Assembly (NCBI RefSeq): GCF_029892785.1
Contig: NZ_JARXXA010000017.1
Location: forward strand, 22,441-86,440
Length of the DNA stretch: 64,000 nucleotides
Direction of reading: 5' to 3'
DNA from: Parabacteroides sp. PH5-46
GTDB lineage: Bacteria; Bacteroidota; Bacteroidia; Bacteroidales; Tannerellaceae
Shown: positions 10,332-62,565 of the stretch, piece after piece
Layout of the letters: every line of letters starts with the position of its first letter
Position numbering within the stretch: position 1 is the stretch's first letter
The notes under the pieces: generated by a model
Seen by the model: the letters and a program-made list of their open reading frames with translations, nothing else
What the model was told of the DNA's origin: nothing
Databases searched by the model: none
Translations under genes and position numbers: made by a program

Positions 10332-10345
10332 TAGCTCACGAGCTA
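10332..10345. promoter_or_regulatory. TAGCTC dyad next to the slyD promoter
   Basis: TAGCTCACGAGCTA is a 6+6 inverted repeat with a 2-nt centre. On the minus strand it reads TAGCTCGTGAGCTA. The octamer TAGCTCGT recurs at 32695 and 51886, both intergenic. Confidence 0.45.
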
Positions 10346-10352
10346 TAAAAAA

Positions 10353-10440
10353 TCGCATGCGTGCAATTCTGAAATCGCATGCGTGCAATTTTCAAAACGC
10401 ATGCATGCGATTTTTCAAACGTATGGGCACGTTTTTTATC
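10353..10440. repeat. Array A: four 22-nt palindromic units (GCATGC type)
   Basis: Four units begin at 10353, 10375, 10397 and 10419, an exact 22-nt period (88 bp). Units 1 and 2 share TCGCATGCGTGCAATT, unit 3 has ACGCATGCATGCGATT, and unit 4 is degenerate (ACGTATGGGCACGTTT). Units are separated by A/T tracts. The array runs into the malY stop codon at 10436-10438. Same architecture as arrays B (17091) and C (32716). Confidence 0.85.
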
Positions 10441-16193: not shown

Positions 16194-17027
16194 ATGAAAG
16201 ACGTACCTTTTGTTGCACGAGTACTTGTGACTTTATTGAAATTACTACTTTTCGGGATTGTATTTTCTCTCATATCAGGGATACTAATATTGCCTTTTGT
16301 TATATTTGGAGAGAAGAGTATTGAATCTATAGATCCTTTGATATCTGTTTACGCACAGCTGATTGCCACATTAATTACCATCTTTATTTTTTATCGTTTC
16401 AATAAGAAGAAGATGACAGATTTGGGCTTTTCGCTTCGGGGACACGTGAAGGAGTTCTGGACAGGCTCTGGCATTGCCATAGTCATCATGCTTATATCTT
16501 TTGGCATTCTATTATTGTTCAAACAGATAGGAGCAGAGGCTAATGCATTTGATGTAGGGGCTTTTCTTTCTGCTCTTGTACTGTTTATCGGAGTTGCGGT
16601 TTTTGAGGAAGTGCTCTGCCGGGGATATATACTGGGCACTCTGATGGATTCAATGAATAAGTATGCCGCTTTGATTATTTCGTCGGCTATTTTTGCACTC
16701 ATGCATTTGCCCAACAATCATATAGCGCCGCTGCCGGTATTCAACCTCTTCCTGGCAGGTATATTGCTAGGCTCCGCATATATTTATACGCGTAATTTAT
16801 GGTTTCCGATTGGCATGCACTTGTTCTGGAACTTTACGCAAGGCACACTTTTGGGCTTCAACGTAAGCGGACAGGAAATCTATAGCATTCTTCGTTTGGA
16901 ATATCCGGAGAACAACTTCTTCAATGGCGGGGCTTTCGGGCTAGAAGGATCTTTTCTGATTTCGGCATTCAGTATTGCCGCTATCGTACTCGTACTAAGG
17001 CATTACAAATCCATTTCACAGGAATAA
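16194..17027 (+). CDS. CPBP-family intramembrane metalloprotease
   Basis: Polytopic inner-membrane protein of the CAAX-protease/bacteriocin-processing family (ABI/CPBP). The 277 residues have about eight hydrophobic segments. All three family motifs are present: EEVLCRG at 138-144 (EExxxR), H171 in FALMH, and H209 in GMHLFWN. Members cleave lipoproteins or peptides in the membrane or give immunity to bacteriocins; the target here is unknown. It is the last gene of its operon, closed by a strong terminator at 17032-17077. Confidence 0.9.
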   Translation: MKDVPFVARVLVTLLKLLLFGIVFSLISGILILPFVIFGEKSIESIDPLISVYAQLIATLITIFIFYRFNKKKMTDLGFSLRGHVKEFWTGSGIAIVIMLISFGILLLFKQIGAEANAFDVGAFLSALVLFIGVAVFEEVLCRGYILGTLMDSMNKYAALIISSAIFALMHLPNNHIAPLPVFNLFLAGILLGSAYIYTRNLWFPIGMHLFWNFTQGTLLGFNVSGQEIYSILRLEYPENNFFNGGAFGLEGSFLISAFSIAAIVLVLRHYKSISQE

Positions 17028-17031
17028 AAAA

Positions 17032-17077
17032 GGCAGCATCAGTATAATTCAAATACCTGATGCTACCTCTCTTTTTT
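17032..17077 (+). terminator. Intrinsic terminator after the CPBP gene
   Basis: Stem GGCAGCATCAG (17032-17042) pairs with CTGATGCTACC (17057-17067) with one mismatch, and a run of six T ends at 17077. Confidence 0.8.
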
Positions 17078-17090
17078 CATGATAAAAGAA

Positions 17091-17178
17091 TCGCGCCACA
17101 TATGTCACGCGATCGATTTACATATGTGTTTCGATCACTCCACATATGTGTTTTGATCGTTCTACATATGTCACGCGA
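17091..17178. repeat. Array B: four 22-nt palindromic units (CATATG type)
   Basis: Exactly 4 x 22 bp. Units start at 17091, 17113, 17135 and 17157, and each is an imperfect palindrome with a shared ACATATG centre. Units 1, 2 and 4 fit TCG-n4-ACATATG-n5-CGA, extending to ACATATGT; unit 3 has TCA/TGA at its ends. Units 1 and 4 share the right half TCACGCGA, while 2 and 3 share GTGTTT. The array lies between two convergent genes, 10 bp from the stop of the minus-strand gene at 17188. Confidence 0.9.
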
Positions 17179-17187
17179 TTCTTTTTA

Positions 17188-18582
17188 TTACAATTTATAC
17201 TTCTCGAAAGACGTATTCTCCGGCTTTACATCCCATCCGGAAATGATTCCACCGTAGAAATAGAATGTAACGTCGAATGCTACATTGCTTGCTTTGTCTA
17301 GTACCTGATAGCATACTGTTGTGCCATACTCGTCTGTTACTTTGTATTCGCCTAAATCAAGCTTTTCGGGCTGCGCCTTATTTTCCAGACTTAAGGCCTT
17401 GAGCATACGTGCTTGAATCAGCTTCATGATACCTTCGTTCTTGAAGGGATCAATATTCACGGTTGTACGGGCTTGCACAGGGTTTCCTTTGTGTTCGGCA
17501 CGAACGGCTTTTACACTATCCGTATAGGCCTTGAACTGTGCCCGCACTTCCGGTGAGCGCAGGCTTCCAACTGTAAAGATAGCAATACCCTCTGCCCCAT
17601 TATTCAATGCTTCATTCATGCAGTCAAACATCATCGGGCCATTGGAAGCCATCATCCCGCAATACAGAGTAGTATTAGGATTTTTATCCTTTACGTTCTC
17701 TATTGTACAGTCGGATATAAAGCTCACATCTTCGGTATAGAAGTTATGGTATACCATCGGGAATACGATATCCAGGTTCCATTTGCCCCAGTCCTGGCGA
17801 ACCATCCGCTTAGACATCTTAGGCGTAGGGAACGGAGAGGCAGCCATCACTTTTCCGTACGAATGAACTACTTCGGCAATCTCGTTGGCTACTTCCGTGA
17901 TCTGGTCGCAGCGGAACTGCAGCCACAGATCGTCGGCAGACGGGTCTTCCTGCTCACGCGGATCGTAGCCATGTTTCGCCTTGAAAGCTTCAATCATCGC
18001 CGGATGATAGCCATAGTCCCACTCGGGATACTCACGGTCTTGTACAATTCCGTAACGAGGCCACAGGGTAGTAGGCAGAATCACGTCTACAAAGCGGTGA
18101 TAGTCGATAGCGATACCATTAAGCCCTTCTACTTCGCAATAGGCTTTGATTTTCTCGCGGATGTGTTGGCGTACTTCAGGGAGGATGGGGCACATGAATT
18201 TATAATAATTCACATACGCTTTTGTATCCGCCAGGCTCTCTCCTTTGCGGTTTACACTGAACCATTCGGGATGTTCTTTCAGGATTCTTTCCCGATCGTG
18301 CTCCAGGTTCATCGTCCATAACCAGGCATATACTTCAAGCCCGTGTTTATGTGCAATTGGAATGGCTTTACGGTAATCGTCGGGCGTTGGCGCATTCAGC
18401 ATTACGCCTTCAATTCCCGTCTCTTTCATAACGACGCAAACCGAGTCGAAATTCATCGTTGGGCGATAGTCCAACCATGTCCAGAACATCGGATACTTAG
18501 ATACTGGCTCTTCTTTTTTTTCTGTACAGGAAAGCATTCCCACAGCTACCAGCAATAACAAAACAATTTTCAGATTTCTCAT
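17188..18582 (-). CDS. Lipoprotein with a GHL10-like (family 10-type) glycosidase domain
   Basis: Last gene of PUL 1. The 464-residue protein has a lipoprotein signal (LLLVAVGMLSC, lipid-bearing Cys about residue 19). It continues as a TIM barrel of the glycosyl-hydrolase-like 10 (PF02638-like) group: WTWLDYRPTMNFDSVC, then KHGLEVYAWLWTMNLEHDRE, then EGLNGIAIDYHRFVDV and IVFPMVYHNFY. GHL10 proteins are thought to act on peptidoglycan-like or amino-sugar glycans, but few are characterised. Being a lipoprotein in a SusCD locus, it is probably at the cell surface or outer membrane. Confident on fold, not on substrate. Confidence 0.8.
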   Translation of the reverse strand: MRNLKIVLLLLVAVGMLSCTEKKEEPVSKYPMFWTWLDYRPTMNFDSVCVVMKETGIEGVMLNAPTPDDYRKAIPIAHKHGLEVYAWLWTMNLEHDRERILKEHPEWFSVNRKGESLADTKAYVNYYKFMCPILPEVRQHIREKIKAYCEVEGLNGIAIDYHRFVDVILPTTLWPRYGIVQDREYPEWDYGYHPAMIEAFKAKHGYDPREQEDPSADDLWLQFRCDQITEVANEIAEVVHSYGKVMAASPFPTPKMSKRMVRQDWGKWNLDIVFPMVYHNFYTEDVSFISDCTIENVKDKNPNTTLYCGMMASNGPMMFDCMNEALNNGAEGIAIFTVGSLRSPEVRAQFKAYTDSVKAVRAEHKGNPVQARTTVNIDPFKNEGIMKLIQARMLKALSLENKAQPEKLDLGEYKVTDEYGTTVCYQVLDKASNVAFDVTFYFYGGIISGWDVKPENTSFEKYKL

Positions 18583-32706: not shown

Positions 32707-32715
32707 GAAAAAAAA

Positions 32716-32803
32716 TCGCACGTGTCCTTTTTATAAATTGCACACGTGCGTTTTTGAGATTGCATGCATGCGTTTCTAAAATCGCATGCATGCAATTTTT
32801 CAG
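32716..32803. repeat. Array C: four 22-nt palindromic units (CACGTG/GCATGC types)
   Basis: Units start at 32716, 32738, 32760 and 32782, again an exact 22-nt period. The cores are TCGCACGTGT, TTGCACACGTGCGT, TTGCATGCATGCGT and TCGCATGCATGCAATT. A/T tracts separate the units. The array ends 17 bp before the stop codon of the DUF5107 gene at 32820 and lies between convergent genes. Confidence 0.88.
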
Positions 32804-32819
32804 CATATAACAATGAGTT

Positions 32820-59280: not shown

Positions 59281-59711
59281 TAATCCAGATGGGTTCTGGT
59301 GCATTCTACCTCTTTTGTTTCGGGGATGTAGCGTTCGCTGGCTACGGTTTCCATCAGGTAGCGTAGTTTGGCACCGGGGCGGAAGATCAGGCGGGCACGG
59401 CGCAGGTTGGCCTGGGTAAATTCACCCTCCTTTTCACTGCCGGTACTGCGTACCAGGAGCTGAAAGTTGCCCAGTTCGCCCATATGCACTACTTCGCCTT
59501 TTTTCAGGCTCTTTACCAGTTGGCTAGTGATACGGTCTACCCCCAGTTTCAGGTCGCCACTGGAAAGCGTAGACGTATCCGCTACCTCGTCGCAGATCTC
59601 TTCAAAGTTACATACCCTTGTAGCACGTGTTTGTGCATAAAACAATTTCTGACCATTCGGCGCCTTGGGCGACATGTTCTTTCTCAAAACCAATTTGTAC
59701 TTTAATGCCAT
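59280..59711 (-). CDS. HU-like DNA-binding protein (HU-HIG type)
   Basis: A 143-residue protein of the HU/IHF group common in Bacteroides accessory modules. It opens MALKYKLVLRKNMSPKAPNGQ and carries the HU core (TSTLSSGDLKLGVDRITSQLVKSLKKGEVVHMGELGNF, positions 47-84), with an arm rich in Arg/Lys (ANLRRARLIFRPG). It probably bends or bridges DNA. Head of the operon HU-glucosaminidase-tiny protein. A -7-like TACCTTTG (complement of 59778-59785) precedes it, divergent from the DUF4248 promoter. Confidence 0.88.
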   Translation of the reverse strand: MALKYKLVLRKNMSPKAPNGQKLFYAQTRATRVCNFEEICDEVADTSTLSSGDLKLGVDRITSQLVKSLKKGEVVHMGELGNFQLLVRSTGSEKEGEFTQANLRRARLIFRPGAKLRYLMETVASERYIPETKEVECTRTHLD

Positions 59712-62415: not shown

Positions 62416-62565
62416 TGCGATCACTGCGATCACTGCGATCATGTTTTTAAAACTTTCTAAAAAAACATGTTCCTCGTTCCTCATAATAAACGCCAAAATG
62501 AGGAACGAGGAACATAAAAATAGAAAAGTTTGAAAATAGTGATCGCACTGAGCGCAGTGATCGCA
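62416..62565. repeat. 150-bp nested palindrome downstream of the PrimPol gene
   Basis: Outer arms are TGCGATCAC repeats (9-nt period, 62416-62441) facing their inverse at 62539-62565. The centre is a perfect 18-nt inverted repeat (62467-62484 with 62498-62515) with a 13-nt loop. The A/T-rich sequence between them is also largely complementary, so the whole element could fold as one stem. It starts 8 nt after the stop codon. Confidence 0.8.

Follow-up and report, generated by a model that had tools for sequence, protein, structure and literature searches.

Palindrome arrays with a 22-bp pitch in Parabacteroides: dispersed families that in part match the leaders of genes for predicted HU-winged-helix proteins

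Introduction

MatP with matS and SlmA with SBS are examples of a nucleoid or division protein that acts at dispersed sites, while REP/BIME elements with their RAYT transposases are dispersed intergenic palindromes tied to one gene family. Here we describe array B, a row of four CATATG palindromes located in a 64,000-nucleotide stretch of Parabacteroides sp. PH5-46 (contig NZ_JARXXA010000017.1, positions 22,441 to 86,440; the whole stretch is hereafter called the window). Array B is one of 13 copies, the alpha family, in the genome containing the window (G000; 4.42 Mb, 39 contigs). The sequence comparisons reported below make it likely that these copies are bound, as a row of dimers, by an HU protein with a predicted winged helix encoded on contig C5. 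This protein is predicted to repress its own gene at the copy in its leader, and elsewhere to influence the shape of the DNA or the transcription nearby.

Like MatP/matS and SlmA/SBS, the system comprises a (predicted) sequence-specific DNA-binding protein and tens of dispersed palindromic sites. It differs from them because the site is mostly a four-unit array with a 22-bp pitch, the gene has an array of its own, and several paralogues with private sequences occur in one genome. The arrays share with REP/BIME elements the character of dispersed intergenic palindromes tied to one gene family, but the linked gene encodes an HU-winged-helix protein and not a Y1 transposase; indeed, none of the three Y1 genes of the genome has an array, or a pair of 6-mer palindromes spaced by 22 nt, within 1.5 kb.

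A further system is found in Porphyromonas gingivalis, which belongs to the same order as the window organism. The BrickBuilt miniature inverted-repeat transposable element (MITE) of this species is described as intergenic, with 19 copies, a 23-nt tandem repeat and inverted-repeat ends; the number of repeats in an element ranges from 1 to 22.8, leader and tail segments are present, and the ends are IS5-like (PMC4596501). The present arrays are also intergenic tandem repeats with inverted-repeat ends. In contrast to BrickBuilt, they mostly have four units and form private families linked to HU-winged-helix genes; in addition, the alpha copies have a 22-nt unit, invariably four units (13 of 13), and ends unlike those described there.

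As for the protein, PF18291 comprises the HU-HIG proteins, in which an HU domain is joined to a winged helix-turn-helix, an immunoglobulin (Ig) or a glycine-rich part. The product of the C5 gene is a member according to Pfam, and its predicted structure agrees. In the open-licence literature, no leader or dispersed cognate arrays were found described for these proteins, and no description of such arrays was found in the titles and abstract openings of open-licence papers. A Foldseek comparison also matched AspA, the centromere-binding protein of plasmid pNOB8 (PDB 5k5q and 4rs8; E about 0.002), which has a winged-helix-like fold and is, by entry title, a DNA-binding protein of a centromere complex. 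AspA has no HU domain, and its resemblance to the modelled alpha-gene product is one of fold only.

Results

Array B and the alpha family

The array B element and its parts are as follows.

17088..17181, no strand assigned: alpha array element, 94 bp, from the gap-free alignment of 13 copies and the lag-22 self-match; terminal inverted repeats GAATCGCG / CGCGATTC
17098..17105, no strand assigned: core palindrome 1, ACATATGT
17120..17127, no strand assigned: core palindrome 2, ACATATGT
17142..17149, no strand assigned: core palindrome 3, ACATATGT
17164..17171, no strand assigned: core palindrome 4, ACATATGT
17111..17114, no strand assigned: GATC node, invariant in 13 of 13 alpha copies
17133..17136, no strand assigned: GATC node, invariant in 13 of 13 alpha copies
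17155..17158, no strand assigned: GATC node, invariant in 13 of 13 alpha copies

The initial annotation had reported four CATATG cores at a 22-nt pitch in 17091-17178. These were found where expected (starts at 17099, 17121, 17143 and 17165, an exact 22-nt pitch), in an element that is longer, namely 94 bp. Its remarks that three of the four units end in TCG...CGA (the third unit has TCA...TGA) and that GCATGC is absent were also correct. Array B is an alternation of two palindromes every 11 bp, ACANNTGT in four copies and GATC in five nodes, the outer two of which are partial; the outer ends read GAATC...GATTC and are flanked by an A-run on the left and a T-run on the right. The self-match of 17091-17178 at lag 22 is 45/66 letters; none of 5,000 dinucleotide shuffles exceeded 34, and when 5,763 further 88-mers were taken from the window, the highest value was 30.

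A search of the genome returned 28 match rows: 13 places, each matched on both strands, and two rows due to chance. Over their 94 bp these copies can be aligned without gaps, at a mean pairwise identity of 79% (69-96%). The AT of the GATC nodes is invariant in 65 of 65 cases, and the G and the C in 52 each, the outermost nodes varying in the outer letter; the ACA..TGT of the cores is constant, save one letter, across 52 cores. Variation is found at four to five spacer letters and at the two central core letters, so that four identical CATATG cores occur in four copies only, while the other nine mix CATATG with CATTTG, CAAATG, CAATTG, CATCTG or TATATG. The concerted change of all four cores noted for array B is therefore real in this array, but does not extend to its family, and the proposed maintenance mechanism keeping the cores alike is not borne out. 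That GATC and ACA..TGT are fixed while the central core letters vary suggests conserved recognition letters rather than homogenisation.

Inverted ends of the GAATCGCG/CGCGATTC type, comparable to the terminal inverted repeats of a MITE, are present in most alpha copies; no obvious target-site duplication was seen by eye at the 13 copies. The two most similar copies, L011 and L019, have an identity of 0.957, and their flanks are no more alike than the background (0.32 and 0.23). Simple gene calls place five copies in divergent, six in tandem and two in convergent gaps (at L018 the called frame overlaps the array). The position beside a stop codon, which the initial annotation had pointed out, thus holds for array B (6 nt) but not in general.

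Among 18 genomes of the genus, the alpha family is limited to G000, with one weak match in G003. The latter belongs to a sister family of the same build and other letters, which has eight full copies and one short copy in G003, five places in G004, and one each in G009 and G011. At four of the G003 arrays (L175, L180, L186 and L187) the similarity continues into the flanks, up to TTTTATTG- and CAATAAAA-like stretches, and the repeated unit there is therefore about 200 bp and MITE-like.

Leader arrays of HU-HIG genes

The leader copy of the alpha family (contig C5, 99127-99228; L189) precedes a gene for a 207-aa HU-HIG protein on the same contig. The product matches PF18291 with 94.7 bits (curated cut-off 26.2), and a fold comparison of its predicted structure aligned residues 134-199, which follow the HU domain, with winged helices. 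The sister arrays are likewise accompanied by HU-HIG proteins in G003 (L178) and G004 (L179), which are 80% identical to each other; the identity of L179 with the alpha-gene product is 27%.

A search of the genus with the alpha-gene protein gave 39 matches in 11 of the 18 genomes. In all, 55 genes were examined: the 39 genus loci (30 plus nine), six more PF18291 matches of G000, and ten named records, out of 24 records hit (Parabacteroides distasonis, Phocaeicola massiliensis, Bacteroides finegoldii, Bacteroides sp. CACC 737 and one phage contig). A gene was considered long if its frame was at least 175 aa (n = 34), and a leader array was accepted if the self-match at a lag of 21-23 reached at least 38/66 within 300 nt upstream of the start. 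Two long genes of G014 (L207 and L199, about 250 aa) were matched over the HU part only, and their tails may differ. An array of 21-23-bp pitch precedes the start codon in 28 of the 34 long genes. Among the 21 shorter homologues are ordinary HU genes as well as fragments, and at one locus the upstream sequence was no longer than 114 nt; three of the 21 pass the rule (L223, L227 and L217), and the frames of L223 and L227 stop before any winged helix. As a null set, 1,578 windows, each 420 nt long, were taken from 80 other contigs, which themselves contain four dyadic lag-22 arrays; the 99th percentile at lag 22 was 35, the 99.9th percentile 55, and the maximum 57.

By eye, an array was seen in all ten named records, with a pitch of 22 nt in eight and 21 nt in two. 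The number of units in these leaders is mostly four (three in L251), and five were counted in L204 of the genus set. The sequences of the leader arrays differ between most HU-HIG genes. An order-wide search of 118 genomes gave matches at a strict cut-off in six, G000 included.

The leader arrays lie before the start codon of the putative regulator's own gene, and many of them right behind a predicted promoter, the position expected of an autoregulatory operator. Of the 28 genes that pass, 18 have a TANNTTTG box, the -7 element of Bacteroidetes, that ends 1-15 nt ahead of the array window as detected, and ten have none there; for the alpha gene the distance is 14 nt. The same box was found in 2 of 124 trials at scattered arrays (62 arrays, both strands), and at 254 of 11,000 random intergenic positions. 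On these counts, leader arrays tend toward a predicted transcript start and scattered arrays do not.

Two further loci may be mentioned. The window contains a short HU-HIG gene of about 143 aa (59343-59711, minus strand), with no room for a winged helix and no upstream array. In G044, which belongs to the same order but a different family, a split HU-winged-helix gene (L280) is preceded by a leader array whose letters, ACATATGT and CGATCG, are strikingly alpha-like.

Census of arrays and matching to leaders

Arrays were then counted by their build alone, using a rule based only on lag and mirror symmetry, in 1,530,754 bases (the window, C1:1-400000, and contigs C2, C3 and C6 in full). The census found 68 arrays at lag 22, two at lag 21, one each at lags 24 and 29, and none at the other lags of 15-31; a stricter first pass over C1, C6 and the window had given 35 at lag 22 and at most two at any other lag. 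The density is about one array per 22 kb, which extrapolates to about 200 in this genome. All but one of the 68 arrays lie outside called genes, although the non-coding share is only 8.5% by simple gene calls. Past the unit palindromes, 43 arrays favoured inverted symmetry and 20 direct symmetry, with five ties, a split that supports no conclusion because the centre was chosen to favour inversion. The 68 arrays divide into distinct sequence families (one is a singleton and may be spurious), and it is at this family level that cores differ between arrays, as had been proposed.

At a cut-off of 50/66 letters, 34 of the 68 arrays match one of the eight HU leader arrays of their own genome, and none matches any of 21 foreign leaders. 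This cut-off is the safe one, because foreign similarities of 42-47 arise by chance (in 600 comparisons, 99th percentile 43 and maximum 47). Array B scores 57 with the alpha leader and 37 with the next best own leader. Since single linkage at 42 merged four HU families, the counts per family were taken from leader matching: eight arrays each for L223 and L218, seven for L200, four for L214, three for L208, three for L189 (alpha) and one for L220. The leaders themselves account for six of the 68 arrays, and the L219 leader has no scattered copy in the census.

The leader array of P. distasonis L246 matches in seven records (19 places, in which palindromes may count twice), its own leader included, with no annotated feature beneath the best place in any of them. 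Its recurrence means that the pattern is not confined to the species of the window. The gene behind this leader encodes WP_008779936.1, and one of the scattered arrays (L379, at about 19.3 kb) is situated between secG and the DUF4491 gene. The B. finegoldii L250 leader has matches in three records, its own leader included, and the L252 leader in its own record only.

Placement along the chromosome

The type of gap differs by family (67 arrays, permutation P 0.0016): 18 of 22 arrays of the merged L208/L214/L218 group and the L200 family, as against 10 of 45 others, lie in divergent gaps (Fisher P 4e-6, for a grouping picked after the data had been seen). Only one of 61 distances between arrays is below 5 kb, whereas 11.6 would be expected under random intergenic placement (P 1e-4; the 5-kb limit was set after all gaps had been seen). 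Adjacent arrays belong to the same family at chance level (9 of 61, 10.7 expected).

Before C2 and C3 were read, a forecast was recorded of a mean gap of about 20 kb and a coefficient of variation (CV) below 0.75. The mean gaps were 22.6 and 21.4 kb, with a pooled CV of 0.744 (P 0.07 compared with uniform and 0.04 compared with intergenic placement), and no gap out of 30 was below 5 kb (6.0 expected, P 0.0007). The forecast of spacing held, and that of evenness held narrowly because C2 (CV 0.94 alone) has one 99-kb array-free stretch. In this stretch (G000:C2:38500-137500) no array was detected and the GC content is 0.481, compared with 0.431; it is possibly a horizontally acquired island.

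Beta and delta/epsilon families

Two further arrays of the window have the same build as array B.

10345..10438, no strand assigned: array A, beta family (GCATGC), from the lag-22 scan and family clustering
32713..32808, no strand assigned: array C, beta family (GCATGC), from the lag-22 scan and family clustering

The beta family, including these two, accounts for 14 of the 68 census arrays, and its two-core pattern with at most one mismatch gave 112 forward matches in the genome, as compared with six for the reversed control. The largest group is delta/epsilon (17 of 68; for example at C2:298665), with TCTCATGCCGATGAGAA-type cores and GAAAC/GTTTC ends, found on contigs C1, C2, C3 and C6. No cognate gene of either group was found among the genes of less than 330 aa facing such arrays in the census, and at 20 delta loci no gene facing the array has a promoter box within 80 nt.

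Surroundings of array B

Array B lies in the gap between two convergent genes.

16194..17027, plus strand: flanking gene for a 277-aa membrane protein, CPBP-protease-like by eye (from the list of open reading frames)
17188..18582, minus strand: flanking gene of 464 aa, with its stop codon 6 nt from array B (from the list of open reading frames)

A second hairpin followed by a T-run is found right behind the 277-aa gene (17028-17075) and is likely an ordinary terminator; with it in place, array B may be dispensable as a terminator of this gene. The 464-aa gene has matches in 14 of the 18 genus genomes, its own included. In none of the 13 others is a lag-22 array present within 500 nt past its stop (at one locus 108 bases only were available), and these loci provide no clean empty site because the next gene, where visible, is a different one. 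Array B had no match at E 0.001 among 72,556 plasmid and 50,697 phage records, and an origin from such a plasmid or phage was rejected on this basis. No Rfam model matched the window at gathering scores. Elsewhere in the window, the 9-mer TGCGATCAC occurs three times head to tail (62416-62441).

Discussion

Cognate binding sites fit the data best, because the motifs are near-invariant at a fixed pitch with free spacers and no indels, each gene has private sequences, and scattered arrays match leaders of their own genome. The binding protein of matching specificity suggested by the initial annotation thus gains indirect support, in that most long HU-HIG genes are preceded by a private array and one in two of the scanned arrays matches a leader of its own genome. 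With a 22-bp unit equal to two helical turns, four HU-winged-helix dimers could be placed on one face of the DNA. The winged helix would read the array core, and the HU domain would bend or coat the DNA between cores two helical turns apart. A bound leader array would block the adjacent promoter, self-repression being the simplest role for the leader copy. Scattered arrays could mark regulatory or architectural boundaries, and we give about equal weight to local regulation and to chromosome architecture as their role.

It is evident that the arrays as such have been copied, and the question arises whether they are mobile palindromic elements, i.e. non-autonomous REP- or MITE-like repeats copied by some enzyme, with the HU-winged-helix genes as source or helper and not as regulator. 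This would agree with the exact ends, with near-identical copies that have no common flanks, and with the restriction of alpha to one species (one other genus genome has a weak match); the scarcity of gaps below 5 kb would likewise follow from insertion immunity. Nevertheless, the 13 alpha copies show no clear target-site duplication by eye, the three Y1 transposase genes have no suitably spaced palindromes nearby, the constant 22-nt pitch and the motif letters at about 20% divergence argue for a selected function, and the place right behind a promoter box is special to HU leaders. We consider this origin unlikely, though it is the most serious of the rivals. The arrays could also act as RNA, as bidirectional terminators at gene ends and as attenuators in the HU leaders. 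On either strand, array B does have a much better fold than its shuffled versions (z about -8); it lies in a convergent gap, and a T-run forms its end. Tandem or convergent gaps also hold most beta and delta/epsilon arrays, and leader arrays would be transcribed from the preceding box. However, of the 67 arrays that were classified, 28 occupy divergent gaps, in which transcripts are not expected to end, and an intrinsic terminator was rejected for this reason as the general role of the arrays (array B itself being convergent). Moreover, letters are conserved across the 13 copies beyond mere pairing, and hairpin pairing is imperfect in several of them, which makes a role as RNA improbable. A chance or low-complexity repeat is hardly conceivable, as none of the 5,000 shuffles came near array B and each other lag of 15-31 gave zero to two arrays in 1.53 Mb, as compared with 68 at lag 22.

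Several observations weigh against the preferred reading of the arrays as cognate sites. Six of the 34 long genes remain below the threshold (L199 36, L248 35, L203 34, L195 34, L196 31, L215 30); by eye, four units can be seen in L203, two in L195, and a 22-nt array in L248. In five other genera of the order, one of them of the same family, seven of 15 full-length genes are below it (29-37) and eight pass. At a looser cut-off of 46/66, 36 arrays match own leaders, and 10 of the 68 also resemble foreign ones. The Mantel correlation is modest, with partial values of 0.19 (winged helix) and 0.10 (HU), and common ancestry accounts for part of it. For 31 of the 68 arrays (14 beta, 17 delta/epsilon) no HU gene was found among 18 PF18291 matches, so that nearly half of the census rests on build alone. 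The density of arrays seems lower elsewhere: samples of 40-130 kb from P. distasonis and six further genomes contained 0-3 dyadic lag-22 arrays each (two of the three in P. distasonis were picked by their match). Finally, some scattered copies, L011 and L019 among them, give the impression of having been copied in the manner of a mobile element, and a plain regulon needs no copying.

If the arrays are cognate sites, the match of half of the sampled arrays to own leaders suggests many parallel protein-DNA addresses, which may organise or regulate the chromosome. A broader generalization is tentative, and in our judgement somewhat more likely to fail than to hold: the Bacteroidales chromosome could be a multi-channel address system, in which HU-winged-helix paralogues, each with a private array of four palindromes at a 22-bp pitch, control themselves and bind scattered copies, with about 200 arrays in at least seven codes, about 22 kb apart, delimiting protein-marked domains.

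HU is the archetypal non-specific nucleoid protein. Should the proposal prove true, a large HU family of Bacteroidales would have gained private addresses, the address of each protein being written before its gene and occurring again at many places along the chromosome. As the likely site of each protein is disclosed by its leader array, cognate pairs could be read from the sequence alone. This would open to testing the recognition code of the winged helix, the control of many genes annotated as 'HU family DNA-binding protein', and the division of the chromosome into domains, also in the cultured gut species P. distasonis.
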